25,695 bases of DNA from a virus: positions 1-25,695 of the IMG/VR virus record IMGVR_UViG_3300018426_002259; one strand, 5' to 3'. Positions 2,764-25,695 of the stretch are shown one piece after another (positions within the stretch are counted from its first letter, which is position 1; each line of letters starts with the position of its first letter). The translations under genes and the position numbers were made by a program. The notes below the pieces were generated by a model. It was not told the origin of the DNA. It saw nothing but the letters and a program-made list of their open reading frames with translations, and made no database searches.

Positions 2764-3232
2764 TAAGATTCTGTCTTTTCTCTACAATTTCTTTGTAATA
2801 TGATTCTGTCCAAAAATCATAATAGTTTGTGTTTTGTTTTATGACATTGCTTTTGTCAATTAATTCTCGGAGTGGCTGAACTAATAAAAGTCCATAATAA
2901 TTATTGTTTGTTTTTATTTCGCCTATAAAGTTGTTTTCTTTTGGATGATCCCAAGCTACCCATAAATCTTTTTTTGTAGCTAGTTTTTGAAAATCATCAG
3001 TAAACCTTATAAGCCATTCTGCTGATATGTGCTTGTTATATAATATTACTATCTTTTTATTTTGTGGAAAGTTATTAAGATAATAGTGTAAGTCGGATAC
3101 AATATTAAAAGTTTCTTTAGTAACAATTGATTCTCGATATTTGGCTATAAATGGACATATACTATTGCCGCCTAATTCTTCCACAGGTTTAGCTAAGTAG
3201 TCAAAATATTTTTGAAGATTTGTGTTATTCAT
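2744..3232 (-). CDS. uncharacterised 162-aa protein at the end of the pentein/transporter cassette
   Basis: I do not recognise the family. The N-terminal third contains ELGGNSICPFIAKYRESI (residues 19-36) with a single Cys-Pro-Phe. The middle has a hydrophobic strand (KKIVILYNKHISAEWL), followed by DLWVAWDHP and YGLLLVQPLRELI, suggesting a small mixed alpha/beta fold. There is no signal peptide or membrane segment. It starts at an ATGA overlap with the upstream pentein gene and has the same low-GC character, so it probably belongs functionally to that cassette. Its 3' end carries the folE promoter. Confidence 0.75.
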   Translation of the reverse strand: MNNTNLQKYFDYLAKPVEELGGNSICPFIAKYRESIVTKETFNIVSDLHYYLNNFPQNKKIVILYNKHISAEWLIRFTDDFQKLATKKDLWVAWDHPKENNFIGEIKTNNNYYGLLLVQPLRELIDKSNVIKQNTNYYDFWTESYYKEIVEKRQNLIDNRPK

Positions 3233-4551
3233 TCTCTATCAATATCTAGTGTGTAACAATGAACACCGCCATCTAAAATCCAACGATGTCTTAATCCAAG
3301 TTGTGTAATTGTAATACCTGCTTGTTGGAAGAACTCATTTCTGCCCTCACCAAATATCGAACCCATTATCTTTTTTGGAGCATATGTTAGGGCATTATAA
3401 TCAAAATCACCCCTTTGATCATAGCCTCTCAATGTTTTTAAATAGTGAGCTAACACTGACTCTTTTGGCTTGGTTTTCTCTATAAAATTTAGTATCTCCC
3501 AATTTTGAATATTGTGAGGAACCTCTAAGATACCGCCATTATAGGCATCATCGACAGATATAATTTCTTTTACAATACCTTTATATAAATCATGCATACT
3601 GGTAGCAATACAGTCTTTATCAATAGGATTAGCGCCACCATCAATATGTCCAGGGACACTATCTAGTTCTATAAATTTAACATTAGGGTGAGACTTTTTT
3701 ACTATATTTGTAAGAAAATCATAACCTTTTTTAGTTCCTTGTGGAGTCCCAATAATTCTGTCATCGAATTTGAAAAAAGATGCGGCATGCAATAATGGTA
3801 TATTTTTTAGTTTTTTGCTGGTATAAATGTATAATGATTCAACTTCTTGTTTAAACGCATCCATAGAGGTAATAAGATTTTTCCTATAGTCATTTATGAT
3901 GCGCAGATAACCATTATAATTACTAATGCGAAATGTATTCCAAGGTGTAGGAGGTTTTCTTTTTAGCTTATCTAATTGTTTTCTTATGTTGGTATCCATC
4001 GTATTAATAGATGTAGAATTTAGATCAGTTATAGCACCATATACAAAATTAGCGCAAGCGTTCTCTATCTCTCTGTTATTTGGATCAACCATATGATGTA
4101 TAGTTTTTCCTTGTTTAGCTAAATCATCAAAAGCATCTTTCCAATATAGCCATTCATTCCATCGGCTTGGATATGATAACTTGCATATAACAATATCATT
4201 TCCGTAGCTAAAACACCAATCTCGAATTGAGCTTGGACTACTAGGAGGTGAACTTTGTCGATGTTTTATTTCCTCATAGTATTTGCTAATATTAGGCCTA
4301 TATACTTTGACTCCTTGGCTTTCTAAAAATTTTTGCATAATATCTAAATCCTCATTTGTTTCTTCATGAACTTGGATTAGATGATTTAATATACTTTCTT
4401 TTTTAGATTGCCTAGCGTAAAGTCTTTTTTTGTCATCTTGTTTGAGTTTTACAGGTGTTGATATAGAAGCTATATCTAGCAAATACTCTTTAGGAAAAAC
4501 TTTTCCAATAAAGACTGTTTTTAATTTTGAATATTCGTTATAAATGCTCAT
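3229..4551 (-). CDS. amidinotransferase-like pentein-fold enzyme (copy with intact catalytic motifs)
   Basis: 440 aa, close to glycine/inosamine amidinotransferases in length. Family marks in order: N-terminal strand EYSKLKTVFIGKV (6-18, the 'E.d.Lk.vivG' opening); IRDWCFSYGNDIV (109-121), equivalent to the R-D...G-N block of arginine:glycine amidinotransferase; VPGHIDGGANPI (299-310) with the presumed catalytic His302 and Asp304; and LDGGVHCYTLDIDRE (426-440) with the presumed nucleophile Cys432. Family members transfer an amidino group from arginine, or hydrolyse guanidino groups, through a Cys thiouronium intermediate. The substrate cannot be told from sequence. It overlaps tctA by 4 bases and has a divergent paralogue at 7767-9029. 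Cytosolic; no signal peptide. Confidence 0.75.
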   Translation of the reverse strand: MSIYNEYSKLKTVFIGKVFPKEYLLDIASISTPVKLKQDDKKRLYARQSKKESILNHLIQVHEETNEDLDIMQKFLESQGVKVYRPNISKYYEEIKHRQSSPPSSPSSIRDWCFSYGNDIVICKLSYPSRWNEWLYWKDAFDDLAKQGKTIHHMVDPNNREIENACANFVYGAITDLNSTSINTMDTNIRKQLDKLKRKPPTPWNTFRISNYNGYLRIINDYRKNLITSMDAFKQEVESLYIYTSKKLKNIPLLHAASFFKFDDRIIGTPQGTKKGYDFLTNIVKKSHPNVKFIELDSVPGHIDGGANPIDKDCIATSMHDLYKGIVKEIISVDDAYNGGILEVPHNIQNWEILNFIEKTKPKESVLAHYLKTLRGYDQRGDFDYNALTYAPKKIMGSIFGEGRNEFFQQAGITITQLGLRHRWILDGGVHCYTLDIDRE

Positions 4552-5987
4552 GCGTAGTTTATCCGATTAGGTTTAAAGATAGTCCATAAAAATAATAGTA
4601 CAATTAGACTTAATATACTTAAGAACAACGGACGATCAAGCAATTTGTCAATCGTATAAATTTTTGTAATTTGAAGAGTTAGTGCCTCTACTCTATCTGC
4701 TAGTATAAATCCTAATAGTAATGCGGGTCTTGAAAATTTATAGTATTTAGCACCTATTCCTAAAGCAGAGCAAAAAATTAATATGGCATAATCTTCCCAT
4801 CCTCCAGTATATTGAACACAAGCCCATATGATAAACAGCACAAGAAATGGGAAATAATATCTATAAGGAACAGATGCTATTCTAGAAATATATGGAGTAA
4901 ATAATAAACAAAATATTCCTACAATAACAGTAGCCCACATAAATCCATAAGTTAAGCTATCAAAGAATTTTGTATCATATGCTAAGTCAGGAGTTCCTAG
5001 CTCAAAGTTTAGCGACATAAACAGAGCCATAAGAATAGCAGCAAACCCTGCGCCAGGAATACCAAAAAGAACAGTAGGAATCATGCTTGTAGCTTTTTGT
5101 GCATTATTAGATCCCTCAGGACCTATAACCCCTTTTATATTCCCGTCACCAAACTTTTCTGTAGGATGTGCTGCTACAGTGCTGCCATATGACATCCAGT
5201 CGCTCATAGCACCGCCTAATCCTGGTAGTAAGCCAATAAATGCCCCAATAAACCCACCACGCATTGCGTCCCATTTATTTTGCCATACAGCATGAATTCC
5301 ATTTATTGTTTGTTTTATATGATCTGTTCTTTTTTCTTTTATGAGCTGTTTACCATTTTTCAAACCATCTAGTAGTTCAGGAAAAGCAAATAACCCTGCT
5401 ACCATAGGCATAAGCTGAATACCATCTCCTAAGTATATCCAGCCCATAGTCCAGCGATCTGAGTTAGTGCTGGGATCTGTACCAATGTAGCCTAATAAAA
5501 GCCCCGCTATGACAGCGATAAGTGATCTTATATACCATTTACTAGAGACTAGCCCAACACAAGCTAGAGCGAGCATAGTAAAAGCCCACAGCTCAGGAAT
5601 GCCAAAATACATAATAAGCTCAACATACCATGGTAGTAGGGCAAAGGTTAGAGTTCCCCATAATAAGCCATTTACAGTTGACGTAGTAATAGCAGCAGAT
5701 AGAGCATAGGTTGCATAACCTTGTTTTGCTAATGGATGCCCATCAACCATTGTAGCGGCAGCAGAGTTAGCACCAGGTATATTCAATAATATACCAGAAT
5801 ATGTATCTCCAGTGGTGCTAGCAGCAACTACTGCCATACAAAAGATTACACCTAAATAAGGATCGTTAGCAAAGTAACTGATGAAGGGAAAAAGAGCCAC
5901 TAGTCCTGTAGTGGCTCCTGCAGAAGGAATAATACCTATTATCAACCCATAAAAAGTACCTGCAAATAGTGCTAGGATTTCTTCCAT
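4548..5987 (-). CDS. tctA: TctA-family large membrane subunit of a tripartite tricarboxylate transporter
   Basis: 479 aa, slightly short at the N-terminus (family about 500), hydrophobic throughout with roughly 11-12 membrane segments. Both family glycine motifs are present: FYGLIIGIIPSAGATTGLVA near the start and GAFIGLLPGLGGAMSDWMSYG in the second half, as expected for the duplicated TctA fold. TILLNIPG-type and FGIPGAG blocks are also visible (GILLNIPGAN, VLFGIPGAGFAA). It would sit in the host inner membrane and import a carboxylate-type solute delivered by the periplasmic TctC next door, driven by an ion gradient. It overlaps tctC by 16 bases. No TctB small subunit is encoded between or beside them. 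No disruption is seen, so it appears intact. Confidence 0.93.
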   Translation of the reverse strand: MEEILALFAGTFYGLIIGIIPSAGATTGLVALFPFISYFANDPYLGVIFCMAVVAASTTGDTYSGILLNIPGANSAAATMVDGHPLAKQGYATYALSAAITTSTVNGLLWGTLTFALLPWYVELIMYFGIPELWAFTMLALACVGLVSSKWYIRSLIAVIAGLLLGYIGTDPSTNSDRWTMGWIYLGDGIQLMPMVAGLFAFPELLDGLKNGKQLIKEKRTDHIKQTINGIHAVWQNKWDAMRGGFIGAFIGLLPGLGGAMSDWMSYGSTVAAHPTEKFGDGNIKGVIGPEGSNNAQKATSMIPTVLFGIPGAGFAAILMALFMSLNFELGTPDLAYDTKFFDSLTYGFMWATVIVGIFCLLFTPYISRIASVPYRYYFPFLVLFIIWACVQYTGGWEDYAILIFCSALGIGAKYYKFSRPALLLGFILADRVEALTLQITKIYTIDKLLDRPLFLSILSLIVLLFLWTIFKPNRINYA

Positions 5988-7036
5988 ACAAGGCTAGGCT
6001 TATATACACTTGCCAATCCAAGTGCTTCTTTATTGAATTTGACTAAGTTTTTGAGTGCCGGCTCGGTGACGAATGTCATTAGCTTATTTCTTTGAATATC
6101 GCCATAAGTTCCAATCCGCCATTGATAGTTACCAACTTTTTCTTTAAACACTTTTCTAGATGATGGATCTGCTGACATTCTATCTAATGCTGTAACTATC
6201 TTATTTTTATAAGGACTATCTTTCTTGATCCAAAGTGCTTTTTGCAATCCATCTCTAAAACTTTTTACAAGTTTATATGTATCGTAAAACTCACCTTTTG
6301 GTTCCTCTCCCCATTTCTCTTTGAATAAGGTTTCTAGTTGTTTTCCAGGAAAGTTTGGATCATCTAAATGAAATCCAGTAATAGCTTCTAGCAATCCATG
6401 GTGAAACCATACTTCAGCATTATCGTTAGATGCGACATGCTTTCGGTATGCTGCTGGATTTTCTCTAGTAACATTTAACTCACCACGCTTGAATGCCAAT
6501 CGTCTCTCAGCAGTGCTCATACCAGAAACCCAAGACACTTTGTCTTTGAAGCAAGAGATATATTCATCTACTGATTTTCCTGGCCCACACATTAACAAAG
6601 TAATAGCAATTGCCTCAGGAACACAACCGCTACAAGCACCGATAGTTGGGTTATCTACATTTTCGTTTTTAGGCTTACCAACAATAATGTTTAGATTCAT
6701 TAGTCCTACAGAGTCATATTCTCTGTAATCATAATCAACCTCTTCTTGTAAAAATGACACACCGTTGCCACCATGTGATACCATTATGGTTTTGTCATCA
6801 AATTGTAAATTGTTATGGAATTCATTGAAACCTGGAATATCTCTGGCGCCAGGAATAAGCACAAGTTCAATATCTTCGCCTAAAAACTTTTCTAATTCCT
6901 TGCTGACAATCTCAGCCCAAACAGTTGTTCCGCCACCTGGCTTTTGCGGCACAACAAATTTATATGTTGCAAAAGCAGTATTTGATAGTATAATAGATGT
7001 GAGTGTGATAATAATAAATAATAATAATTTTTTCAT
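5972..7036 (-). CDS. tctC: TctC-family periplasmic solute-binding protein
   Basis: 354 aa with a clear Sec signal peptide: MKKLL, a hydrophobic core of about 15 residues, then AFA before Thr24 as the likely signal peptidase I site. The mature protein opens YKFVVPQKPGGGTTVWAEIV, the usual TctC/Bug strand followed by the Gly-rich ligand loop. Later blocks are MVSHGGNGVSF and the long helical C-terminal half typical of the family. It would bind the transported solute in the host periplasm and deliver it to TctA. It overlaps the upstream methyltransferase gene by ATGA. It has several Cys residues (GACSGCVPEA, LLMCGPG, YISCFKD), which is more than I expect for this family and may form disulfides. 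Ligand unknown. Confidence 0.85.
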   Translation of the reverse strand: MKKLLLFIIITLTSIILSNTAFATYKFVVPQKPGGGTTVWAEIVSKELEKFLGEDIELVLIPGARDIPGFNEFHNNLQFDDKTIMVSHGGNGVSFLQEEVDYDYREYDSVGLMNLNIIVGKPKNENVDNPTIGACSGCVPEAIAITLLMCGPGKSVDEYISCFKDKVSWVSGMSTAERRLAFKRGELNVTRENPAAYRKHVASNDNAEVWFHHGLLEAITGFHLDDPNFPGKQLETLFKEKWGEEPKGEFYDTYKLVKSFRDGLQKALWIKKDSPYKNKIVTALDRMSADPSSRKVFKEKVGNYQWRIGTYGDIQRNKLMTFVTEPALKNLVKFNKEALGLASVYKPSLVWKKS

Positions 7037-7766: not shown

Positions 7767-9029
7767 TTATTTATCTAAAGAGCCTTCTCTATCAATGTCT
7801 ATGGTATAACATCGTATATCTCTTTTTAGTGTATTTTGATGTCTTAATCCAAGATTATGAGCTCTTATATTTTGAACATACATAAAATAATCTCGGCTAT
7901 CACCAAATATACCACCAACTGTTTTATAAGGCTCATACGTTATGGCGTTATACTCTAGATTATATTGATCCTCTTTATCACAAAGTACTCTCATATATGT
8001 ATTAATCTTTGAGTCAGGATCAATAGTTAGGTTTATATGATTGTTGTGCCTAGAAGGAGTTAATAATAATCGTGGATTAGTTATCTGGTAATCTTGAAAA
8101 GTTTTAGTTCCAGTAACAGAGTGTTTTATAATGTTAGGCGAAAACCGATCATATAAATCTGTCATAATTAAATCTGAGCAAATTGGGTTTGACGATTTTG
8201 TTATGCAACCAGACTCTCCTAAAATATTACAAAAATTTATATCATATTTTGATAATAATATTTTTTTAAAATTACTATACCCTTTTTTATTACCTAAAGG
8301 TGAACTAATAATTTTTCCGTCATGTTTGAGATATGATGAAGTATGAGTTAAAGGATATTTTTTTAGGGCAGAATTAGAATATATATAAGTTGGCTCAACT
8401 TCGTCTTTAAATCTAGGATTATCTTTTGATATGTATAAATCTTTAATTGTTTTTTTATAATACGATTTACGAATCTCGTCCCATTCAGAGTTAATATTTT
8501 GAATTTGAGAAAAATTAAATTTTAGATCTTTTAATACTCTGCGTTGAGAATGAGTTTCATATCGATCTAATAAAGAGTTTGATATTTTGGCAAACACATC
8601 AAAGTCAAATTCATTTTCATCTACTATGTGATGTATTGTTTTTCCTTGCTCTCCTAACTCGTCAAATACATCTTTCCAATATAACCACTCATACCAACGA
8701 TTTGGACAATAGGTTTTAGATAGTATAATGTCATCACCATAGCTAAAACACCAATCTCGTATTGTGCTGGGGTTTGGTGGAGCTGATTTAGTTTTATCTC
8801 TTACTTCCTCATAATACTTGTTAATATTGGGTCTATATACTTTTACACCTTTACCCTCAAAAAATTTTTGAAGAGCATCTAAATCTTTATTAGTTTCTTT
8901 ATGGATTTTTATAAGAGTAGGCAGTATATCTTTATCAGAAGGCGATGCAAGTTCCTTTAGGCATTCTGTAGGTAACAGTTTGCCTATAAGAATAGTTTTT
9001 AGTTTTGAATACTCGTTATATACACTCAT
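7767..9029 (-). CDS. amidinotransferase-like pentein paralogue lacking the catalytic His motif
   Basis: 420 aa, clearly paralogous to the 3229-4551 product: both open with YNEYSKLKT, share RDWCFSYG, a WLYWKD block, GKTIHH and a C-terminal CYT(L/I)DIDRE. The block GHIDGGANPI of the other copy is here GCITKSSNPI (274-283), so the presumed catalytic His is Cys275 and the following Asp is Thr277. The glycines before the nucleophile (GGVHC) have become RDIRC, although Cys407 remains. The central region is more divergent. It is therefore probably a pseudoenzyme, regulatory partner or altered enzyme, perhaps forming hetero-oligomers with the intact copy. It starts at an ATGA overlap with the 84-aa gene and opens the low-GC cargo block. 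Confidence 0.75.
   Translation of the reverse strand: MSVYNEYSKLKTILIGKLLPTECLKELASPSDKDILPTLIKIHKETNKDLDALQKFFEGKGVKVYRPNINKYYEEVRDKTKSAPPNPSTIRDWCFSYGDDIILSKTYCPNRWYEWLYWKDVFDELGEQGKTIHHIVDENEFDFDVFAKISNSLLDRYETHSQRRVLKDLKFNFSQIQNINSEWDEIRKSYYKKTIKDLYISKDNPRFKDEVEPTYIYSNSALKKYPLTHTSSYLKHDGKIISSPLGNKKGYSNFKKILLSKYDINFCNILGESGCITKSSNPICSDLIMTDLYDRFSPNIIKHSVTGTKTFQDYQITNPRLLLTPSRHNNHINLTIDPDSKINTYMRVLCDKEDQYNLEYNAITYEPYKTVGGIFGDSRDYFMYVQNIRAHNLGLRHQNTLKRDIRCYTIDIDREGSLDK
7768..7775 (-). promoter_or_regulatory. possible T4-type late promoter (GATAAATA)
   Basis: Minus strand GATAAATA, 7 of 8 matches to the T4 late -10 TATAAATA, placed 24 bases before the methyltransferase ATG, similar to the spacing of the better late site at 17007-17014. 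It overlaps the last codons of pentein copy 2. Similar 7/8 matches occur by chance elsewhere in this AT-rich sequence, so this is weak. Confidence 0.3.
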
Positions 9030-9280
9030 TTTGTTGATTGAAAGGATAAAGTAATACCACCTGGACCTGCTGATAATTCATATGTGTGCCAACGGTTTGA
9101 AAGGTTGATATCTAATTTATTAAAACAGTAAATAGAGACATATTTGTCGTCGTCTAGTGTATCTACGGCATCAATTGTGTTAGTTGCGTAATCAATGCCA
9201 ACATTATAAAGATGATTGATTCTCTCAGGATCATCTTTCCAAGGGGAGTCTAATTCTCCAACTGGAATGTGCATAATCAT
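9026..9280 (-). CDS. hypothetical protein, 84 aa
   Basis: No family recognised. The start at 9280 overlaps the phosphoribosyltransferase stop as ATGA; a second Met two codons later is an alternative. The sequence begins MIMHIPVGELDSPWKDDPER, has an acidic centre (DAVDTLDDDKYVSIYCF) and ends ITLSFQSTK. It looks like a small soluble beta-rich protein. It overlaps the downstream pentein gene by ATGA, which supports it as a translated gene. It marks the junction between the operon of nucleotide/sugar enzymes and the AT-rich cassette. Confidence 0.7.
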   Translation of the reverse strand: MIMHIPVGELDSPWKDDPERINHLYNVGIDYATNTIDAVDTLDDDKYVSIYCFNKLDINLSNRWHTYELSAGPGGITLSFQSTK

Positions 9281-9843
9281 TTGTCATATAATCCTACATT
9301 TTCCCACGGATATACAACCCAAACATCATCGTCTGCTTTGTTGACTTCCGTAGCATAATACCTTACCAAGTCAAATTCGCTTGATAGATTTTCAGTTAGT
9401 ACAGCAAATCTTACATTATGATTCCAAATGTCTTTCCAAGCGGGGTTAGTAGCTAAACAGTTACTTTCCCAATCCTTCATAATCCATTTGAAAGTTCTAC
9501 CAGTGTCATTGATGTCATCAATGACTAAAATATTTTTGCGTTTCTCAGGAACAGATCCAGTATAGCCAGAATTGGCACTTCCATCCTCAACTACGCCATA
9601 GCCAAACGCATCCTCAGCCATAATACAGTTAGATTCGTTTGATTCGTTGCCATTGTTGCGGAAACTAACAAGCAAACTGTCAGCAGGAATATCAAGCATA
9701 TTGCTAAGGATAGTAGCGGGTACATTTCCGCCACGAGTAATACCTACAATATAATCAGGACGCCAACCGTCAGCATACATTTGATTAGTTATACTGTGGC
9801 ACATACGCTCAATGTCGTGCCAAGAATACCATAGTTTTTTCAT
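9277..9843 (-). CDS. type I phosphoribosyltransferase, Gpt/xanthine-guanine-like
   Basis: 188 aa. The PRPP-binding loop is NILVIDDINDTGRTF (104-118); the PPi loop region YIVGITRGG (31-39) and the C-terminal VWVVYPWENVG match the xanthine-guanine PRTase (Gpt) class. This class joins a purine base to PRPP to make the nucleotide. An insertion of about 25 residues (NNGNESNESNCIMAEDAFGY region) precedes the PRPP loop and may set base choice. Next to deazaguanine genes it might salvage guanine-type or 7-deazaguanine bases, but ordinary purine salvage is just as compatible. It overlaps both neighbours by ATGA. Confidence 0.85.
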   Translation of the reverse strand: MKKLWYSWHDIERMCHSITNQMYADGWRPDYIVGITRGGNVPATILSNMLDIPADSLLVSFRNNGNESNESNCIMAEDAFGYGVVEDGSANSGYTGSVPEKRKNILVIDDINDTGRTFKWIMKDWESNCLATNPAWKDIWNHNVRFAVLTENLSSEFDLVRYYATEVNKADDDVWVVYPWENVGLYDK

Positions 9844-13200: not shown

Positions 13201-14075
13201 AGTAGTCCTAATTTGTTGTGAATGAATAAATCAATATCAAGTTGCCTAATCCAAAACTCGTCATTAGCTATTTGACTTACAGAATCTAAAATCATAGCCC
13301 TATATGCATCTTCAGGGCATAGTCCATAATGATACTGTATTGTTGGACCATCCTCAGTGTTGAAGATAATAAGTCTTCTGTCCTCAAGTCCATTAGCCCA
13401 GTTAGCAGTAAGTGTCCATTTGTCATTAAAGACAAACCGGCACTCATCATCAACATCATATATTCCTCCAGGATAAATGTCTCCGTATTCAGTTTCTGTA
13501 ATATTTTCTAGTAGATGGTTTTGTGCTGAGAATCTAACTTGTAGCTTATCAGTTTTCCAGTCAGGATTGAGCGCAATAAAAAAGCTCAATAAGTGTGGCA
13601 TCAAGTCTCTGCTTACTCCTCCCCATGCACATTTTTTAGTTGTAAACCAACTGCCAGGATGTGGAATACGCATACGGTTTTCCCATACGAAATTTACAGA
13701 ACTAGCACTCTCGGCAATATCATTGTAATTGATTAGTTCTCTTCTCCACATATTATTTTTTACCATCATAATTCTAGTGGAGCGATAATCATTTAAAAGT
13801 CTATGCCACGCTTGAGAAGTTTCCAATCCAGGCTTCTCAACAAACATAACATCTACATTATGATTCTCAAGAATCTCTCTTGCTATCGTTTCGTGTGTAA
13901 AGTTAGGAGTGCAAATATGTGCTGTTTGAAATGACATTCTCAACGGCATTTCTGAAACTTCTGTATAGTTGCCTAAATTATTCAAATCAACAGTAACAGT
14001 CTCCCAACCTAGTTCTTTGTATATTTTGTAATATAAAGAACCAATACCTAACCCAACAATTAGAGCTCTTTTCAT
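13197..14075 (-). CDS. GFO/IDH/MocA-family oxidoreductase
   Basis: 292 aa. N-terminal Rossmann fold RALIVGLGIGSLYYKIYKE (3-21) with a GxGxGS loop, then AHICTPNFTHETIAREIL (52-69) and FVEKPG (78-83). Together these are the defining 'TPn..H' and 'EKP' blocks of the family. The C-terminal domain (about 110-292) has the mixed sheet used for substrate binding (GGVSRDLMPHLLSFF). Members oxidise or reduce sugar and cyclitol derivatives with NAD(P). It overlaps both the DpdA-like and the MDR gene by ATGA, so the three are translated together. Substrate unknown. Confidence 0.85.
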   Translation of the reverse strand: MKRALIVGLGIGSLYYKIYKELGWETVTVDLNNLGNYTEVSEMPLRMSFQTAHICTPNFTHETIAREILENHNVDVMFVEKPGLETSQAWHRLLNDYRSTRIMMVKNNMWRRELINYNDIAESASSVNFVWENRMRIPHPGSWFTTKKCAWGGVSRDLMPHLLSFFIALNPDWKTDKLQVRFSAQNHLLENITETEYGDIYPGGIYDVDDECRFVFNDKWTLTANWANGLEDRRLIIFNTEDGPTIQYHYGLCPEDAYRAMILDSVSQIANDEFWIRQLDIDLFIHNKLGLL

Positions 14076-15532
14076 GATGCTTCCTCAAAAAGGTTGTTAT
14101 AGAAAGTTGTGGCATTTTTCATTTTCTTGCCAGTAAATCCTCTAGTACCTCGAATGCCATCAAGATAGTTTTGATACTCATCATTTAGTGCGTTTGCTTT
14201 ATCTCTGTCGTCTGTAGCAAAAATATCATTGACGACATCTCTGAATGCTACTACGTCAAACATTTCACGAACTAATACACCAGGAACAATGCCTTTGTCA
14301 TATTGCCTGTTAGCTTCTTGTACAGCATTTATATGAGTCCATACATTATGTGACATTAGCAAGCAGTATGAGAACGAGTCCCAAGATGTAAATCCAATTT
14401 TACCAATTTTGTTTTTATCATTAGGCCCATATACACATACATCTTTAGCAGTCATGCCAATGGATATAGGTGAATCCTCAAATACTTTCCAACATCCTTC
14501 TCTTACCCAAGCATCTGCTAATGGTGTAGGATCTGTATGGAATTTTCTATCATCAAATGATGCTTCCATTCTATAACCCCATTTGCCTCTGTCAGGTGTT
14601 TCTGTAGCGCAATATACTTGCCCGTTGGCAGTTGCTAAAAATGGACTAGCACAATCAAAAGTAATCATAAAGTTTTCGTTATGATTTTTTCGAATAGCTC
14701 TTTGTATGTCTGTTAGCATAAGCGCCCATTCAAGTTTTGATGTGCCTAAAAAGTGCATTACATCCTGTACACCTTTTTCTAATAATCCGTCAAATCGTAA
14801 CGCAATCAATCTTTTTATAGCTAAATGGATATCGCACATATTTTGCCCACCCATAGCCCAGCCACTGAAGTGATCAGTGTATTGCTTAGGGTCGCAATAC
14901 TTTTTCATCTGATCATACCATTCGTCTGCTTCTGTATGGTTTTCGCCTTGTAATACGTTTAGGAACTTACACGCACCTGTTTTATTTTTCATAAAATAGT
15001 CGTTGTTTACTTGTGTTCCATTTACGCCTTCCTGGAATGTGTTGATTCCGCTAGCAGCTCTTCCTTCAGGTGTTTTACGCACCCATGTTGGTATATCTAG
15101 GATCATTCCATAATCCATATACGCATCCATCCAAGTCAATACTAGCTCACGCTTCTTTTTAGCTTTAGGACAGTTAGGATCTTTCCAGTCACCTTCCCAT
15201 ACACCTTTGCCAATCTGAAATCCTCCAGAGTCACCTAACATCCAAGTATTATCACGATCTCTATTGCGGATCATGTCCTCTTTCTCAGCCTTCTTATTGA
15301 TGTCTAGAATTGCGTGTCCTGCTGAGTATAAGGACCACTTATACTTGTAAATACCTTCATTTTGATTTAGCCAGTTGAGGCTTTCCATCCCATTAGTCAT
15401 TGGAGGAATAAATCGTGAAGGATCTACATAATTTATAAATCTTTGTTTACCAATAAATGTAGCATAAAAAGTGCTTAGGGCTGGTAAGAAGTGTGCATAG
15501 TCTTTTTGATGTTTAGTTAAGTCAGTATTCAT
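14072..15532 (-). CDS. dpdA: DpdA-like DNA 7-deazaguanine transglycosylase (TGT fold)
   Basis: 486 aa, longer than bacterial tRNA-guanine transglycosylase (about 375). The TGT active-site series is present in order: LGDSGGFQIG (99-108; Asp101 binds the base), LNVLQGE (191-197), FSGWAMGGQN (222-231), MHFLGTS (259-265) and FMITFDCASPF (288-298), with Asp293 as the likely nucleophile. The C-terminal zinc site of tRNA TGTs is not visible. DpdA enzymes exchange guanine in DNA for a 7-deazaguanine, in phages giving resistance to restriction. FolE, QueE and a QueD-like protein in the same window supply the precursor. A tRNA-acting enzyme is the alternative, but phage context and length favour DpdA. 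ATGA overlaps on both sides. Confidence 0.85.
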   Translation of the reverse strand: MNTDLTKHQKDYAHFLPALSTFYATFIGKQRFINYVDPSRFIPPMTNGMESLNWLNQNEGIYKYKWSLYSAGHAILDINKKAEKEDMIRNRDRDNTWMLGDSGGFQIGKGVWEGDWKDPNCPKAKKKRELVLTWMDAYMDYGMILDIPTWVRKTPEGRAASGINTFQEGVNGTQVNNDYFMKNKTGACKFLNVLQGENHTEADEWYDQMKKYCDPKQYTDHFSGWAMGGQNMCDIHLAIKRLIALRFDGLLEKGVQDVMHFLGTSKLEWALMLTDIQRAIRKNHNENFMITFDCASPFLATANGQVYCATETPDRGKWGYRMEASFDDRKFHTDPTPLADAWVREGCWKVFEDSPISIGMTAKDVCVYGPNDKNKIGKIGFTSWDSFSYCLLMSHNVWTHINAVQEANRQYDKGIVPGVLVREMFDVVAFRDVVNDIFATDDRDKANALNDEYQNYLDGIRGTRGFTGKKMKNATTFYNNLFEEAS

Positions 15533-17017: not shown

Positions 17018-18343
17018 TTATACGTCATCTTCTTTATTTAATGGCATAAAAATATAGCTATACAAGCCATACTTTGTTTTTACTGTTAGCATTAGTTTGC
17101 CTTCATCTGAGATGCGAAAAGTTTTCTCACCTGCCATTTCTAATACGGCATTAACGTGAGATACATTATATGTCCATTCTTTGTTTAGATAGCCAATTGG
17201 TAGTCTATAGCCTTTAGTATCCTCTTTCTTAATTATAACTTGATTTCCAGTTTTTGTCAAGGATCTTTCACTGTTTTGTATTTGCTTAATGTTTGCTTGG
17301 CTCACCTCAAAAATAGCTACCTTTTCACCATCATATGTTGTATTAGCAACCGCCTGTGCATTACTATCAACTCTAGCTTTAGCTAAATCCTGTGTTAGCC
17401 CAGATGGCGTAGCAGGTGTTGGTAATGTTACTGGATACTCTAGTCCTTCTACAAAGTCTCCTGCGGATGCTATTATTTGAGTCGTACTCATATCAAGAAT
17501 AGCACTAGGATCTGTAACTGAGGCAGCTACTGTTGTAGGAGATTTAGTTGGGGCTGGAGCAGGCGCTGGATCTTGCTCAGTTACTGCCTTTGTTGCCGGA
17601 GGTGGTGGAGGCGCAGGAGGTGGTGGTGGAGGTGTAGGGCGAGGGCGAGGAGCTTTTGTAGCATCAGGCACTCTGTATCCACCAACGCCAATCTTTCTAG
17701 ATATTAGATAAATGTCACTAGGGTTAGCAAGTCCAACAGTCAATGAATCTGAAAAGAAAGTAGCCAACCATGGATTAGTAGATGATATATTACCAGATAC
17801 TTTTGCTTGTGATTGGGCCCAAGAGCCATACACCTTAGCAAAAGAAAATTGTTTACCAGGGCCTGTAGTGTTCCACTGCCAATTCCACGGCATATTAACA
17901 TTTACTTGAACTGCTATATATACTGCTTTAGATTTAGGTATTCCAGATTTATCTAAAAAGTTATAAGGAGCAACATCCCATTTACTGATAGGTTGTCGTT
18001 GTAGTTGTAAGGTTCCGTGTGGAACTTTATTCCCAGAAAATATATCCCACATACTTTGTGCCATTTTTGGATTAGCTGGTGAGATAACAGGCCTACTACC
18101 TGCTTTGAGATGATAAAATTTTTCTGTTTGAGTGTAGATATTAATTATTCTATAATCAGTAATAGAACTAGAATTTCCATATGATGTGTCTAAATCTCTT
18201 ACTAAATTAGTTCCCCATTTAGATGAGATTTCGCCTTTGGCTCTGAGCTCAGCCTCGTGTATTATCATATGAATAACTGATGTAGTTTTACTAACATCTT
18301 TTCGATCAGCCCTAACACTAATACCGAGAACAGCGCCAATCAT
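17018..18343 (-). CDS. gene A: chimera with a clamp-like C-terminus behind a proline-rich linker
   Basis: 441 aa. Residues 1-226 form a domain I do not recognise, Trp/Tyr-rich (PWNWQWNTTGPGKQ, AKVYGSWAQSQAK) and without signal peptide. Residues 228-268 are a proline/alanine linker with runs of six and five prolines. Residues about 340-436 resemble the second half of the clamp encoded next door: KEWTYNVSHVNAVLEMAG (388-405) against NTWTYPVSQIQSILNLDG, then ISDEGKLMLTVKT against LSDDGAMKISVNS and YSYIFMP against YDYILPA. The start overlaps the gene B stop as ATGA with AGGGG just upstream. It may be half of a divided second clamp, or a virion-associated protein that borrowed a clamp module. Confidence 0.8.
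   Translation of the reverse strand: MIGAVLGISVRADRKDVSKTTSVIHMIIHEAELRAKGEISSKWGTNLVRDLDTSYGNSSSITDYRIINIYTQTEKFYHLKAGSRPVISPANPKMAQSMWDIFSGNKVPHGTLQLQRQPISKWDVAPYNFLDKSGIPKSKAVYIAVQVNVNMPWNWQWNTTGPGKQFSFAKVYGSWAQSQAKVSGNISSTNPWLATFFSDSLTVGLANPSDIYLISRKIGVGGYRVPDATKAPRPRPTPPPPPPAPPPPPATKAVTEQDPAPAPAPTKSPTTVAASVTDPSAILDMSTTQIIASAGDFVEGLEYPVTLPTPATPSGLTQDLAKARVDSNAQAVANTTYDGEKVAIFEVSQANIKQIQNSERSLTKTGNQVIIKKEDTKGYRLPIGYLNKEWTYNVSHVNAVLEMAGEKTFRISDEGKLMLTVKTKYGLYSYIFMPLNKEDDV
17232..17260 (-). promoter_or_regulatory. perfect-consensus sigma70 promoter inside gene A, upstream of the clamp
   Basis: Minus strand TTGACA (17255-17260), 17-base spacer, TATAAT (17232-17237), inside codons for residues about 362-371 of gene A. 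Exactly the same layout as the intergenic promoters in this window. It would transcribe the clamp gene and the dpdA unit about 250 bases downstream, independently of genes B and A. Confidence 0.7.
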
Positions 18344-20742
18344 GATTTACCCCTGCCTATTGTGTAATCTGTATCTTTTATATAATATGGACCATATATA
18401 CTATCATGTGATATCTCACAAGTAATACCACCAAATGTAAAAGTATAACTGCCTTCCATTGGAATTGGATTTATATCTACACGATGTGGATTTTTCCTAG
18501 TATATGGTTCACGCCTAGGATAGCTTGTAAATATTAGCCCATTGCCGGTATCGTGTCTTGCTTGGCATCGTGCAGTAGTATGGCCCAATTCAATCCAAGG
18601 ACCATTCCATTCATCGCTTACATAAAATCTATTTTTATCTACAATAGAATGAACATAATATTTTTTATTTGCTTCAAGCCCAGAGGCTGCTGGAGGATTT
18701 ACAAACTGTATTGGTTGGCGCTCTCTGTACGCAAACCAAAAAGTATCATCAACAAATATATGATGAACATGATGCTTTATAGTAAACTCAAAGTTACAAA
18801 ATGGCAATTCTAGAGCTTCGCCATTTGGTATATCAGTTATTGTAAATCTTGTTCTAATAAATTTTTCTGTTGGTGATGTAGATCTATTTGATTTGTCAGG
18901 ATATCTTGCTTTAGGGTTTAGCAAATCCTCAATTGGATCTCCAGTATTTTCATTTAGCAATACAGGCTTTTCAGTATCTAAATATACCTCAACTTCATCT
19001 GTTGATATAATTTCTTTGATATAATATTCTTTCTTTGGATCTAATGTAGCTTGTGCCAATGCTTGTGCAGAATCAGGATTATTTTCAAATTGTACTTTCA
19101 TTCCTGGCACTAGATAATCTATAATATGACGACTATTATAATTTGGATCATTTCTTGTAGCATCATTTATAGGATGTTCCATTTCTAGTGCGTTGTCTTG
19201 TATTTCCATCCAAAATTCAAAATCAGCAAATCTAAATGAGTATGGATCGCCATCAGCAGCATCCACAATGCTAAAGGTATTACAATCAACTATTTTATCA
19301 ATTTTAAATATTTTTCCTCTAGGAATTCCTACTTGTAACAGTGCTTCAGCAGAGTCTGCAGGATTCTCAAATCTTACAGGCATTCCTTCATAAAAACGGC
19401 TTGTGTCCTCAGTTTTTAGATAACCACTTTTTGTATCGGGTATTTCATCCCGCTGTTCCCCTAATCCATCAGTTGACGGGCTTACTACTATATACTCTGG
19501 TTTGACACCCGTAATGAGCCCTGTGTACCACGCAATAGGCTCTGCTCGTGTAGTAAACTCATATATAATGCGTGGAACATATGTTCCAGAGATTGTAGGC
19601 TCAAATAACATTTGTCCTTCTTTAGGATTATCTTCACCAAACTCTACTTCCATCATATATTGATATAATCCAGGAACAGATGAATGATTTCCTATTTGCT
19701 TAGTATAAATATCAAACTGCCTAAATTCATCGTATGTTACAGACATATCTTTAAATCTACGAATAGTAGCATCTGACATTTTGAATGTTATATTCCACAA
19801 TGACTCTGAAAAATCTACCATAGGAAATATTTTAGGCGTAATATCTTTTTTGTGTATTAGAGGAACTTGATCATTAAATGACTTATCATCATTTACAAAA
19901 TCTATTCTAGATGAAACATATTCTCCATCTTCATTTACACTTGTAATTTTTACATTAGAACCTTTAGCATATTCGTTTAGATTGCGTAACTGTTCCCATA
20001 GCTTGCCTAAGTTATCCATACCAAAGTCTTTGTTGAACGCACGGATTTTCTCATCTGTTTGTCCTACAAAGTATATGTCTTTTTCAGGTGATACTGCTTC
20101 TAAAAATGTATTATCTTGTACTATCTCAATCCTGCCAGCCCAAGCCTTATTGAATCTTATATACTGTGAAGCATTTTGTGATGACGCTAGACGAATTTTA
20201 TTATTTTCCAATAACTCGTATATATAATATTTAGAGTTCGTGCTTAGTCCTGCTTCAGCTACTATATCTGTATTTGAAGGAAAGTTTTCAAATATTACTT
20301 TCATTCCTAAGTCTAAAAATGATGGATCTTTGATTACTACATAACTTCTATTATGTCGTATAGTAAATGAAAAATTAGAATAAGGAACTTCAATAATATC
20401 TTTAGTTGTAGGAGTTGTTCCTACTGTAAATTTAGTACAGTAGTCATTACACCATAGTGTATTGACATAATAGATTTTATTAGTGTCTAACTGTGCATTT
20501 GTTAGCGATTGTGTAGATCCATCTGGCGAGGTTAGGAATTGAACAGGCATTCCAACTTCTAGCCATGGAGTTAGTTGTGGAGATGTTGTAAGTTGATGTG
20601 TTCGAGGATCAATATCTAAAATCTTACCATATAAGTCAGGTATAATTTCAATAGCTTCGTCTTTGATATGATAAAAGTTTAGAAACTCAAAAAATGATGC
20701 ATACCAAGTATGTTGCAAGATATCTAGTAATTGATTCCTCAT
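18340..20742 (-). CDS. gene B: clamp-like domain interrupted by virion-type repeats, 800 aa
   Basis: Residues 1-36 (MRNQLLDILQHTWYASFFEF...) parallel the clamp N-terminus. Residues 216-299 align without large gaps to clamp residues 34-115: NKDFGMDNLGKLWEQLRNL against DGVFGMTNLDKLNLHLKNP, then VKITSVNEDGEYVSSRIDFVN against IEVVTDTRNDETFPSHIHFEN. Residues 313-340 resemble the second-domain helix (ATIRRFKDMS against AAISRLKLMS). Between 37 and 215, and again from 390 to 800, there are five repeats of the form 'GM.V.F.N.......YYI..I', a module I associate with marine phage structural proteins. It overlaps the preceding 162-aa gene by one base and gene A by four. Known function: none; a clamp-derived replication or virion factor is inferred. 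Confidence 0.8.
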   Translation of the reverse strand: MRNQLLDILQHTWYASFFEFLNFYHIKDEAIEIIPDLYGKILDIDPRTHQLTTSPQLTPWLEVGMPVQFLTSPDGSTQSLTNAQLDTNKIYYVNTLWCNDYCTKFTVGTTPTTKDIIEVPYSNFSFTIRHNRSYVVIKDPSFLDLGMKVIFENFPSNTDIVAEAGLSTNSKYYIYELLENNKIRLASSQNASQYIRFNKAWAGRIEIVQDNTFLEAVSPEKDIYFVGQTDEKIRAFNKDFGMDNLGKLWEQLRNLNEYAKGSNVKITSVNEDGEYVSSRIDFVNDDKSFNDQVPLIHKKDITPKIFPMVDFSESLWNITFKMSDATIRRFKDMSVTYDEFRQFDIYTKQIGNHSSVPGLYQYMMEVEFGEDNPKEGQMLFEPTISGTYVPRIIYEFTTRAEPIAWYTGLITGVKPEYIVVSPSTDGLGEQRDEIPDTKSGYLKTEDTSRFYEGMPVRFENPADSAEALLQVGIPRGKIFKIDKIVDCNTFSIVDAADGDPYSFRFADFEFWMEIQDNALEMEHPINDATRNDPNYNSRHIIDYLVPGMKVQFENNPDSAQALAQATLDPKKEYYIKEIISTDEVEVYLDTEKPVLLNENTGDPIEDLLNPKARYPDKSNRSTSPTEKFIRTRFTITDIPNGEALELPFCNFEFTIKHHVHHIFVDDTFWFAYRERQPIQFVNPPAASGLEANKKYYVHSIVDKNRFYVSDEWNGPWIELGHTTARCQARHDTGNGLIFTSYPRREPYTRKNPHRVDINPIPMEGSYTFTFGGITCEISHDSIYGPYYIKDTDYTIGRGKS
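18643..20559 (-). repeat. five degenerate 'GM-V-F ... YY-I' protein repeats in gene B
   Basis: Units begin near residues 62, 145, 452, 546 and 674 of gene B: VGMPVQFL, LGMKVIFEN, EGMPVRFENP, PGMKVQFENNP and RQPIQFVNPP. Each is followed 20-25 residues later by IYYV, KYYIYEL, KIFKIDKI, EYYIKEI or KYYVHSI and then an F/Y-V strand. The first two lie in the first insertion of the clamp-like domain, the last three after it. Confidence 0.75.
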
Positions 20743-21230
20743 TAATCTTTCTTTTCTTGATTAACTTCGATGTATGCTGTTCCATCTTTTTCTTTTAGTG
20801 TAAGCCTAACATCTTTAATTTTTCTATATGATTTTTCTATATCAAAACATTTTACATTGATATTTTTAGCGGCTAGCATACTATCGAATGTCATACCTTT
20901 GCCAATTAGATTATGGATATCCATATAACCACAATCCATGCCTAATCCGTACATTCCTTCGTCAAAGCCAAATACATCATATAATACATATCTATAAGAT
21001 CCATTTGCTTTGACATCTCCGTTATGGATTTTTTTGCATACGTGGTAAAACGCTCGCTCCTTGTCTTCATCATCGAGCCCTTCCCAAAACTGCATAGCTT
21101 CTCGTTCGTATTGTTCCATAGCCTTTACATAATATTCGCGAACCTTCTCCATCTCTGGAGAGTTTAACACATCTTTCAATGTTTGTTTCTTTTTATCGTC
21201 TTTTTTTTCTTTCATATCACCCAAACTCAA
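20742..21230 (-). CDS. conserved T4-like phage protein next to DNA polymerase, 162 aa
   Basis: Function unknown. A Lys-rich N-terminus (MKEKKDDKKKQTLKDVL) is followed by helices containing AMQFWEGLDDEDKERAFYHV. A conserved-looking core, SYRYVLYDVFGFDEGMYGLGMDCGYMDIHN, is of a type I recall in small proteins of marine T4-like phages. The C-terminus is a short beta region (VRLTLKEKDGTAYIEVNQ). The ATG at 21230 lies 14 bases inside the 3' end of the polymerase gene; a second Met at codon 6 (MKEKK) is possible. Its stop shares one base with the gene B ATG (TAATG), so the three are probably coupled. Confidence 0.78.
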   Translation of the reverse strand: MSLGDMKEKKDDKKKQTLKDVLNSPEMEKVREYYVKAMEQYEREAMQFWEGLDDEDKERAFYHVCKKIHNGDVKANGSYRYVLYDVFGFDEGMYGLGMDCGYMDIHNLIGKGMTFDSMLAAKNINVKCFDIEKSYRKIKDVRLTLKEKDGTAYIEVNQEKKD

Positions 21231-23886
21231 ATAATGCTTTAAATGTATTGTCCTGTCTAGTGTCAGTCAAATCATATTTTAGAACACCAATTAGATTATC
21301 TAATTTACTATCAATAATAGCATTTTCCATAGCCTCATGATCGAACGGCAATGCTTTGAACCAATCTGGTAATCGAAGCTCGTCTGTTGGATATGCTACT
21401 GATGTATATCCTAGTGGATTTTGCTTTAGCTTGCATACAATAACTTTCATGCCATCCACAATCTCCATACTGTATTTATCGTGGTTCATAACCCGTAATG
21501 TGTTCCAGTTGAGACTTGCTCTAACGTGCCCTGGCAAGTTAGCTTTACCCTGCTTCTCTTCCAATGCTCTAAAGTGTCCAATTTTATTAGCTCTCTTAGG
21601 AGATCCTTTTTCCCAGCCCGGACGCTCTTTGAATTGTATTCTAAATTGCGTAATGCGTTGTAGAATAGATTCTTCAGATTCTTCCTTTAGCACCATCATT
21701 AGAATTTCCATCAAAAACTCTTGCATAAAGACAGGAGTATCTGATCGACGCAAATCTAAGCCCATAGCTTTGATTTTTCCATCTTTGCCATCTATGTCCT
21801 TGCGATCACCTTCTAAGTCATACACTAGGGCAGCATAACGTTTCTTAGTAATGTATAAGCCTGACTCAGCAACAATCTCACGCCCAGCAGCAATAACATC
21901 AGAACGGCTAGCTGGACAGTGAAAAGCGTCCCGCATAAAATCTGTAAAAGTAGTATTTGTTGCTTCAGCTACCTGATCGTATAGTGTAATGACTGTGTCT
22001 TTGTCCCACGGGATTTTTCCATCTTTGATATCATCCTTTAGTGTATTATACGCCGAAAAATATACAGAGTCAGTATCACCATATATTACAGCATCGCCTG
22101 TGTGATCATACTTTCCTGTAATAGTTTTATTGACTTCTGCGGACATATGCTTTACAATAGCTCTACCCGTAAGTGTAGTGGATTGCCCAATACGCTTGTC
22201 AAAAAATCTACAGCCAGCATTTAGAATAGCACCATACAGAGAGTTTAGATTAATTTTCTTTACTAGCTGCCGTTTATCCCAAAATGCTATCTCAAGCTCG
22301 TTACCAGCCTCAATAGCTTTTTTCTTCATAGCTTGGAGTTCTTTACGTTCAGCATACCAACGTTTCAAAATACCAGGAATGACACCTTCAAATTCTGTTG
22401 TAAATATTGTGCCATTCGCAGATAGCATCCATGGAGTATGTGAATTGAATATAAGTTCATATACTTCAGCAGCAGACAATACTTCTGTCTCGCCATTTTC
22501 AAAATCAATAGTAATCATTATATCACGCCGTTGCTGCATTACTGCCTCATACTCTAGCGTGCCAAACATTCCTTCCCACGCACCAGCAAAAGACTTCTTT
22601 TCAAGCTCCTGCGCCTCTTTGAGCATTTCATCAGTAGCCTCTGGGCGTAGCTGTCCTACAATAGTTTCAGGTGCCATGTTGAGGGATCTAATAACACTAG
22701 GATACAGAGAGTTCAAGTCCATTGAACCAATCCATTTGTGTAGCCCTTTCTTTGGAAATGCTACATATGCTCCTGCTGCCTGCGTAGCACCTTCTACCAT
22801 AGGCGGGCGATTAGGAACTCTCAATCCTCTGTGATGTGCTTCATTGATAATAGCTTGCTCAATAACTGCTACCGCTCCCATTGTTGTTTGTAGCAATACA
22901 GTATTGGCGTGAGCTAGAATATTGCTGAGGTCGATAAACTTTAGCTTTTTGTCCAGTTTATCTAGCAGAGCTACGTCCTGCCGATTGTATTCTATAAACG
23001 TGCGAAAATCGTTGTTATATAGCTGGTCCAGCGTACCTTCGTATACCGTTTTGTTTTCCCCAACCTCTAGCTCGCCAATTGCATCTAATCTGTAGCTGTG
23101 ACGCTCCTCATATGTATATTTACGATATAAATCTAGCGAGTCTAAATGCACACGTCCTACTAGATCATATGTTTCTGCTTTTTTGCCATATCTTTCGAAC
23201 TCTCGTTTCTTTGGCAATTGTTTCCATAAACAGAAACGCCTTGTATCGTTTTTACTGAGAACACGACTTACACGATTTACAGTATATGGGATATCATAAC
23301 CCTCTGAGTTCCATCCGCTCAATATGTCTGCGTCATCGATCAAATCTAGAAATGTGTCTAGCATTTCCTTCTCAGTTTCAAATAACATAACGGATTTGCC
23401 CCATTGCGCCATTTGTTCCCTAGCTTGCTCAATAGGTAGTCCTTTAGGAGGAACTGCTAGTGTAATAAGTGCTTCAAGCCATTGTAAATGAACTGTAATA
23501 GCAGTAATAGGCATAAATGGATCAGACGGATTAGCAAATCCACGTTCTGGATCAAAATCAGTCTCAATATCCCAAAATGCTATGTTCAGCTTTGGAGCTT
23601 CTAAGTTTAGATAGTTCTCACTAAGACATTGGAACACGGGATTGATGTCAGCCTCAAATAGACGGCTATTTTGATACATGGCTTTCTCCCTACGAAAATC
23701 TTTTGTACTTTTGCAAGTAATTCTAGTAAGGGGATCTCCATAGACAGATTTATGCTTGCCTTTTTTATCCTCTACATAAAAAGTATATTTTACGGGATAT
23801 TCAATATATTTGCGTTCGCCTTCCACACGTTCTACAATGCGGATGATATCAGCTTCCTTATCAAAGAAGCCGTCTATGTAACTCAT
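21217..23886 (-). CDS. 43: family B replicative DNA polymerase, T4 gp43-like
   Basis: 889 aa, matching T4 gp43 (898). Exonuclease motifs: AFWDIETDF (103-111), SGWNSEGYDIPY (190-201) and EYNRQDVALL (299-308). Polymerase motifs: MDLNSLYPSVI (389-399, motif A), KKINLNSLYGAILNAG (543-558, motif B) and IYGDTDSVYF (601-610, motif C). All catalytic Asp and Glu residues are present, so both synthesis and proofreading should work. The extreme C-terminus DNTFKALFEFG resembles the clamp-binding peptide at the end of T4 gp43. It sits after a dsbA-like gene (TAATG overlap), under the promoter at 24177-24205. The C-terminal end overlaps the next gene by 14 bases. Confidence 0.97.
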   Translation of the reverse strand: MSYIDGFFDKEADIIRIVERVEGERKYIEYPVKYTFYVEDKKGKHKSVYGDPLTRITCKSTKDFRREKAMYQNSRLFEADINPVFQCLSENYLNLEAPKLNIAFWDIETDFDPERGFANPSDPFMPITAITVHLQWLEALITLAVPPKGLPIEQAREQMAQWGKSVMLFETEKEMLDTFLDLIDDADILSGWNSEGYDIPYTVNRVSRVLSKNDTRRFCLWKQLPKKREFERYGKKAETYDLVGRVHLDSLDLYRKYTYEERHSYRLDAIGELEVGENKTVYEGTLDQLYNNDFRTFIEYNRQDVALLDKLDKKLKFIDLSNILAHANTVLLQTTMGAVAVIEQAIINEAHHRGLRVPNRPPMVEGATQAAGAYVAFPKKGLHKWIGSMDLNSLYPSVIRSLNMAPETIVGQLRPEATDEMLKEAQELEKKSFAGAWEGMFGTLEYEAVMQQRRDIMITIDFENGETEVLSAAEVYELIFNSHTPWMLSANGTIFTTEFEGVIPGILKRWYAERKELQAMKKKAIEAGNELEIAFWDKRQLVKKINLNSLYGAILNAGCRFFDKRIGQSTTLTGRAIVKHMSAEVNKTITGKYDHTGDAVIYGDTDSVYFSAYNTLKDDIKDGKIPWDKDTVITLYDQVAEATNTTFTDFMRDAFHCPASRSDVIAAGREIVAESGLYITKKRYAALVYDLEGDRKDIDGKDGKIKAMGLDLRRSDTPVFMQEFLMEILMMVLKEESEESILQRITQFRIQFKERPGWEKGSPKRANKIGHFRALEEKQGKANLPGHVRASLNWNTLRVMNHDKYSMEIVDGMKVIVCKLKQNPLGYTSVAYPTDELRLPDWFKALPFDHEAMENAIIDSKLDNLIGVLKYDLTDTRQDNTFKALFEFG

Positions 23887-24232: not shown

Positions 24233-25695
24233 TCATCCGCCTGTTCGTTGCTTCTGAAAATAGTTAGCTGCCGCAGTCTTGCTAGGAACTTTTCCTCTTC
24301 CTCCTGATCTTTGCTGTTGGAAATAATTCTTTTGCTGTGAGGTAGCTCGTTTTGGTACTGCGCCACCTGTTCTTTGCTTTTGGAAATAGTTTGCTTGATC
24401 ATTTGTAGCTGGTGGAACATAACCTGTGGGAGCTAGTTGTGGACCAAACTCTGGACCAGCATTGGTTTTTGCTGCTACTTTAGTCTGTGGCGCTGTTTGC
24501 CCATTACCTTTTATAAAGAACTGCTTATTGACTGGATCTAAAACTACTGGAACTCCTTGTCCTTTGAATTTCCCACGCTGTCCAACTGCTGATGGATCCA
24601 CAACAATTGTCTGACCATTTGCTGGAGCCGGCTTTCCTTGTCCAGCAAATGTAAATACAGTTCCGTTATATTTTACCATCTTACCACTTGTTCGGACTCC
24701 TGGTGTAAGAGCGTTTGGATTTGCTTGCTGTGCTGATACAGTTTGTGCGGCAGGCTGTGCATTTTGATTCATTCCAGGAAGTTGTGCTGGTGGAGCCTGT
24801 GCTACATTTTGCTGTGCGGCAGGTTGTAACCCAGCTTTATTCAGTGCTTGTTGGAATCCGTGATCTACTGTGCCAGGTGCTTCTGGTCCTGGTAAGTTAG
24901 CGGCTGTTTTGCTGGCATTAGCAGGATTTGCTGCTGCCGCTGCTAACCCTGGATCTACTCCTGCTGGAGCCTGTGGAGCTGGAGCTTGAGGTGCCGCTGG
25001 CCCTGGAGCTTGTTTAGTTAGGAACATTCTTCCGTGAGCTAGTTCAACTGTAGCTCCTACATTTTCTTTGCCAGGGGGTGGTGTCATACCCAATGCTTTC
25101 CATGGAACTGAAATAACTTCTCCAACCCCTGGAGCTGGTTGCCCTTGTCCTGCAAAGTTATAGGCTTTTCTATTATACAAAATTTTAGCAGCTGATTTAC
25201 TTACACGAACACCTTGTGTTAGTGGTGCTGTTTTAAGTCCTGTAGGTGCTTGTCCGCCACCTTGCTGTTGTTGAACTGGTGATGCTGTGTTAGCTCCTCC
25301 AGAATTTGGAAACTTTGGAGCTGAATCGCTGTAACGTTTAGGCGGTGGAGGCGCTTGTATATTAGCGTCTTGATTTCTAGTATCTGATGGATCTGGATAT
25401 GCAGGCGCACCCGGAGTTGTTCCTCCACCCTGTTGCTGTCGTTGAGTTCTTGAATCTTTTCGAGCTGCCATTGCTGCCCAGTCAAGTCCACCACCACCCT
25501 GCGGTTCTTCAGGTGCTGCTGCACCACCCTGCGGTGCTGGAGGTGGTGCTGGAGCATTCGCCTGAGATTGCTGAGCGCCACCTTTTTGTGCGCTAACAAC
25601 TCTTTTTTCCAGATCTTTAACTGTTGCGTTATTTATTTTAGGCATTTCTGCTTTTGGAACACCTTTATCTTTAGCTACTTTCGCTGTTGCTTGAT
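24233..25695 (-). CDS. low-complexity Pro/Gln/Gly/Ala-rich protein, 5' end beyond the window
   Basis: The frame is open across the window edge: 16 more codons (QATAKVAKDKGVPKAE) precede the Met at 25645, which has no good ribosome site, so the true start is probably outside. The visible part (about 486 aa) is largely disordered. Two similar blocks, ILYNRKAYNFAGQGQPAPG and MVKYNGTVFTFAGQGKPAPA, form short ordered beta modules, each followed by a 'V....F' strand. The tail has three 11-residue units of the type NYF-Q-QR-GG. No function recognised; a virion-associated or nucleic-acid-binding scaffold is a guess. It ends 9 bases before a hairpin. Confidence 0.75.
   Translation of the reverse strand, partial: QATAKVAKDKGVPKAEMPKINNATVKDLEKRVVSAQKGGAQQSQANAPAPPPAPQGGAAAPEEPQGGGGLDWAAMAARKDSRTQRQQQGGGTTPGAPAYPDPSDTRNQDANIQAPPPPKRYSDSAPKFPNSGGANTASPVQQQQGGGQAPTGLKTAPLTQGVRVSKSAAKILYNRKAYNFAGQGQPAPGVGEVISVPWKALGMTPPPGKENVGATVELAHGRMFLTKQAPGPAAPQAPAPQAPAGVDPGLAAAAANPANASKTAANLPGPEAPGTVDHGFQQALNKAGLQPAAQQNVAQAPPAQLPGMNQNAQPAAQTVSAQQANPNALTPGVRTSGKMVKYNGTVFTFAGQGKPAPANGQTIVVDPSAVGQRGKFKGQGVPVVLDPVNKQFFIKGNGQTAPQTKVAAKTNAGPEFGPQLAPTGYVPPATNDQANYFQKQRTGGAVPKRATSQQKNYFQQQRSGGRGKVPSKTAAANYFQKQRTGG
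24236..24394 (-). repeat. three 63-base-spaced repeats encoding ANYFQKQRTGG-type units
   Basis: The protein tail carries ANYFQKQRTGG (24362-24394), KNYFQQQRSGG (24299-24331) and ANYFQKQRTGG (24236-24268), each starting exactly 21 residues after the last. Linkers are basic (AVPKRATSQQ, RGKVPSKTAA). The last unit is the very C-terminus of the protein. Confidence 0.9.

Follow-up and report, generated by a model that had tools for sequence, protein, structure and literature searches.

Heteromeric clamps, such as archaeal PCNA1-3 and the 9-1-1 complex with its Rad9 tail, are mixed rings of specialised paralogues, some of which carry appended regions. To our knowledge, none of them has a subunit that is divided over separate genes and bears repeat insertions. 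In phages, the closest described relatives of the genes analysed here are T4 gp45 (phrog_223) and the RaK2-like family phrog_12062, with which they share a homologous family, a neighbouring polymerase gene, and an intact clamp in the same genome. The known members of both families are single proteins of 220-250 aa, whereas the second copy in this phage is divided in two and has about 970 residues added. Engineered split yeast PCNA (3l0w, 3l0x) is likewise a subunit made of two polypeptides, which self-assembles non-covalently (PMC4092866), and its ubiquitin version has a module at the break. That protein is a laboratory construct, whereas the present split is natural, lies at another break point, involves large modules, and is only proposed to assemble. 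Phage enzymes that were split into separate genes by insertions are also able to reassemble, as reported for the replication proteins NrdA of Aeh1 and gp43 of phages 25 and 44RR (PMC2988022). In contrast to those cases, the gene that is split here has an intact paralogue at its side, and neither a homing endonuclease, an intein nor an intron was seen: the interrupting segments had no match in Pfam or PHROGs, and the window had none in Rfam. Finally, vaccinia G8R, a predicted PCNA-like late transcription factor (PMC2674943), is similar in being a viral protein with a predicted clamp fold and a possible use in transcription, but it is a single chain without a split and comes from an unrelated virus.

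The window, meaning the whole 25.7-kb contig that was analysed, comes from a marine jumbo phage. Its minus strand carries, in order, a polymerase gene, a small gene, gene B, gene A, the ordinary clamp gene, an epimerase gene and further genes (Table 1). The polymerase gene, as identified by its profile match, places B and A in the replication region. The overlaps of the small gene with B and of B with A suggest that the three genes are translationally coupled. The earlier note on this DNA had described A and B as coupled genes followed directly by the genuine clamp gene; the start/stop overlap was found, and the open reading frames confirmed the order. T4-type late promoters (TATAAATA) occurred at a frequency no higher than chance.

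Table 1. Positions of the split clamp, its parts and the neighbouring genes in the window (L005 and L126 are related contigs)
Feature	Position	Strand	Basis and remarks
Family B DNA polymerase	21217..23886	-	phrog_262, 1.7e-200
Small gene between polymerase and B	20742..21215	-	Overlaps B start (TAATG); L126 counterpart at 46% identity
Gene B, 800 aa	18340..20742	-	ORF; clamp profile 1.4e-17; front and middle of split clamp, two added segments
B residues 1-22	20677..20742	-	Compared with clamp N-terminus; residues 1-12 align, marginal
B residues ~23-203, first insertion	20134..20676	-	About 2 copies of a degenerate repeat (GMxVxF...YYV)
B residues 204-394	19561..20133	-	Matches clamp ~20-194, including FGMxNL
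B residues 395-800, C-terminal extension	18343..19560	-	About 3 more repeats and a tail
B stop/A start overlap, ATGA	18340..18343	-	AGGGG upstream; 4-base overlap also in L005 and L126
Gene A, 441 aa	17018..18343	-	ORF; clamp profile 1.9e-7; N-terminal domain, proline-rich linker, clamp tail
A residues 1-230, N-terminal domain	17654..18343	-	With linker, a separate gene in L126
A residues 231-330, proline-rich linker	17354..17653	-	Sequence; L126 counterpart also proline-rich
A residues 386-437	17033..17188	-	Gapless against clamp 193-244, including WTYxVS
Ordinary clamp gene, 244 aa	16245..16979	-	phrog_12062, 3e-31; profile link to T4 gp45

The ordinary clamp gene is a member of phrog_12062, a family to which no function has been assigned. 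Relatives of this family lie directly after the polymerase gene in RaK2-, 121Q- and Munch-like jumbo phages, and two of them carry a clamp annotation. A family member from a Vibrio phage matched both phrog_12062 (6e-55) and the gp45 family phrog_223 (6.7e-5), and an hhalign comparison of the ordinary-clamp family with nine gp45 proteins was collinear over 185 columns (probability 53%, E 1.4e-4). The gene is therefore homologous to gp45/phrog_12062-like clamps over most of its length, with the polymerase adjacent in relatives. A direct search of PDB sequences with the clamp profile returned chance matches only. Neither the RaK2 paper (PMC3622015) nor the paper on its relative CBB (PMC5259590) reports a gp45, and RaK2 ORF102 (positions 5995-6738 of L103) is a phrog_12062-family gene without annotation. 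Because these papers lack a gp45 and phrog_12062 is linked to gp45 by sequence profiles, phrog_12062 is probably the clamp that RaK2-like jumbo phages had seemed to lack.

When a profile built from 48 related clamps was run against all open reading frames, it matched B at residues 209-350 and A at residues 384-432, at the values given in Table 1. With a broader clamp profile the match to B was lengthened to residues 209-394, and phrog_12062 itself also matched B (5.1e-7). By hhalign, B was aligned to clamp residues 27-193 (98%, E 4e-14) and A to residues 192-240 (93%, E 2e-7). In shuffle tests, B 309-381 against clamp 124-184 gave a Z of 11, and A 386-437 against clamp 193-244 gave a Z of 19. 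The earlier note had recognised the back of a clamp in the C-terminus of A from its WTY.VS block, and the gapless alignment and the profile match bear this out. Its equation of B 216-299 with clamp 34-115 was real but ended too early, as the match runs on to clamp residue ~193. Its equation of residues 1-36 of B with clamp 1-36 proved weaker: only residues 1-12 align, and with the position fixed their score was reached by 2 of 300 shuffles. The columns of the B N-terminus (1-22) are largely invariant among relatives.

Outside these segments the two proteins do not look like clamps. No resemblance to the clamp was found in B beyond residues ~384-460 or in A 1-230 and 300-385. A clamp tail within B past residue 395 was considered and rejected because there was no signal; A 320-385 likewise gave no signal as the front half of clamp domain II, and including the L126 homologue brought no gain. 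The N-terminal domain of A had no database match. Five degenerate repeats were recognised in B, divided between the first insertion and the C-terminal extension, and none of them had a match in Pfam, PHROGs, PDB or 21 virus records. The claim that virion-type repeats had invaded the clamp thus stands for the insertion of the repeats and finds no support for their virion type. It is improbable that B and A belong to the virion, with clamp-fold segments put to a new use and the repeats serving as structural modules. The repeats looked virion-type in the initial sequence reading, and one relative of the clamp, from phage PA5oct, is labelled a 'structural protein' (by annotation only), but the family libraries, solved structures and phage records searched offered no match for the repeats, no homology to known virion modules was found for the repeats or for the A N-terminal domain, and both genes sit between polymerase and clamp.

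In terms of predicted structure, the two proteins differed. AlphaFold modelled residues ~391-430 of A at a pLDDT of 76-94 by block, from an input alignment that contained clamp rows. When the A tail was compared with PDB by Foldseek, human PCNA was the top match (probability 0.99, 2.6 Å over 55 columns), and engineered split yeast PCNA (3l0w/3l0x) was also among the matches; the E-values were weak because the segment is short. A search of BFVD with the A model returned one unnamed protein of 95 aa (probability 1.00) and was otherwise uninformative. The model of full-length B had a mean pLDDT of 38 and was left out of the fold searches; the clamp fold of B is predicted from homology. The structure prediction proposed earlier as a check thus supports the A tail, which falls on PCNA, and says little for B.

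Taken together, B (to clamp residue ~193) and A (193-244) cover the length of one clamp with no gap and essentially no overlap. Homology over the length of a clamp is present in B and A joined and in neither piece alone, with the first ~25 residues marginal. Because the pieces meet at one point essentially without overlap, the alignments suggest one interrupted clamp gene rather than two partial copies. B and A together have preserved 55 of the 126 conserved clamp sites as compared with 19 of the 114 variable ones, the pattern is similar in L126, and such a preference would be expected of proteins that still adopt the clamp fold. These results support the earlier description of a second, divergent clamp that is split over two coupled genes, holds inserted repeat modules, and lies beside the genuine clamp. 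We consider it somewhat probable that B and A are a duplicated and fissioned clamp whose pieces reassemble around the appended modules. With no clamp similarity in A 320-385 or in B beyond ~395, the pieces are separated by about 1,200 bases within B and 1,150 within A, and these segments might hinder reassembly.

The same arrangement was found in related contigs. The close ones are 81-100% identical, and L005 retains the B/A overlap. In L126, the order of polymerase, small gene, B, A and clamp recurs, which answers the earlier suggestion to look for the A/B/45 order in other phages. B of L126 is 51% identical to that of the window, its own clamp 64% and its polymerase 80%; the N-terminal part of A is there a separate gene (8448-9377, 27% identity to A), and the clamp tail has a gene of its own (126 aa, 42% identity). 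The contigs that bear B are mostly short and several end inside B, as might be expected of an assembly or sequencing artefact, but an artefact or a chance similarity is barely credible and is already contradicted by the agreement of independent profiles and by the same organisation in several contigs, including one as distant as L126. Among the best 80 loci of each scan, B and A were not found outside the window's group, and no second full-length clamp was present in any fetched relative (101 distinct clamps; best 80 loci per scan). Neither B nor A occurred in the phage collection searched, and B was absent from the bacterial and archaeal genomes searched. In relatives, the interval between polymerase and clamp carries variable cargo genes. 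The polymerase of another contig, L007, is as far from that of the window as the polymerase of L005 is (dS 0.91), while its B is closer (dS 0.56 vs 0.98), which suggests recombination.

Compared with L005, B had a dN/dS of 0.13, which indicates purifying selection; the polymerase had 0.07. Within B, the clamp segment (0.123) was as low as the insertions (0.117 and 0.138). For A, selection was measured over 101 N-terminal codons, a stretch that leaves out the clamp tail. The constraint on the clamp segment of B and the preferential retention of conserved clamp sites argue against the pieces being remnants of a duplicated clamp that lost clamp function and were kept for useful inserted modules. 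Such remnants would agree with the very high divergence of the clamp parts, and we regard them as very unlikely.

Phylogenetic trees placed the split copy within the marine clamps, near the ordinary clamps of its own phages, on a branch of 6.4-6.9 changes per site. The earlier note had proposed a tandem duplication of gene 45, and both the position of the split copy and the tree would fit this history; the long branch keeps it from being proven, and an origin outside the marine clamps is statistically compatible (p-AU 0.41). In two split-clamp phages, the only two independent lineages on which the comparison rests, the ordinary clamp is also ~9-14 points more diverged than the polymerase predicts. 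Its mean identity to other clamps is 0.59-0.65 as compared with the usual 0.72-0.79 at equal polymerase identity, and at 78-82% polymerase identity it is 0.646 vs 0.787. This acceleration is consistent with co-evolution with a partner in a mixed ring, and it could instead reflect relaxed constraint. The clamp of L184, a contig without B and A, is unusually diverged as well; in that contig, polymerase and clamp are separated by genes resembling those of sugar metabolism.

A fast-evolving ordinary clamp fits any close partner. B, whose clamp piece amounts to the first domain and one half of the second, could act on the ordinary clamp as its partner or regulator, capping, opening or recruiting it, with the A tail as a separate adaptor. 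The extremely long branch, the large segments between the clamp pieces, and the free-standing tail gene of L126 would agree with such a role. Nevertheless, the near-exact complementarity and the conserved positions kept in both pieces are best explained by a single fold, and we find a regulator of this kind unlikely.

If B and A are instead one fissioned clamp, the following course may be proposed. A tandem duplication of the clamp gene would have given a second copy, which was later split by insertion; judging from the clamp-fold alignment, the break would fall in the second clamp domain, where it would part the two strand-helix-strand repeats from each other. The two coupled chains, B and A, would fold jointly and complete a single clamp subunit, much as the parts of engineered split PCNA do. 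Such a subunit may combine with the ordinary clamp in a mixed ring or make a ring of its own; mixed rings are formed by heteromeric clamps, whereas here such a ring is a proposal. The loaded ring would carry the B repeat modules and the extra domain of A round the DNA, in replication or in late transcription. That the two chains reassemble, join the ordinary clamp in a mixed ring, and are loaded on phage DNA as a decorated ring is put forward tentatively, as a possibility that we hold with some doubt.

Several other genes on the minus strand of the window were also observed. A TctA-family tricarboxylate transporter permease (4548-7036; Pfam 4.6e-96), unusual in a phage, lies next to a gene resembling its periplasmic binding protein, and this transporter region is flanked by a pair of similar genes (3229-4551, 440 aa, and 7767-9029, 420 aa) that both match phrog_25854. 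FolE and QueE genes are present together with a conserved gene that has a GDSGGFQ motif (14072-15532 and 1154-2703). The motif presumably recalls tRNA-guanine transglycosylases, although this gene had no profile match. The combination of the three genes suggests that the virus modifies its DNA with 7-deazaguanine. A low-complexity protein (24233-25693) ends in three copies of NYFQ(K/Q)QR(T/S)GG.

The phrog_12062 assignment supplies a candidate for the clamp thought to be missing in RaK2-like jumbo phages. Few replication proteins are as constrained as sliding clamps. If the proposed reassembly is true, a natural two-gene clamp would show how far a working ring can be broken and decorated, it would be a natural counterpart of engineered split PCNA, and it may represent a new way to bring proteins to phage DNA.
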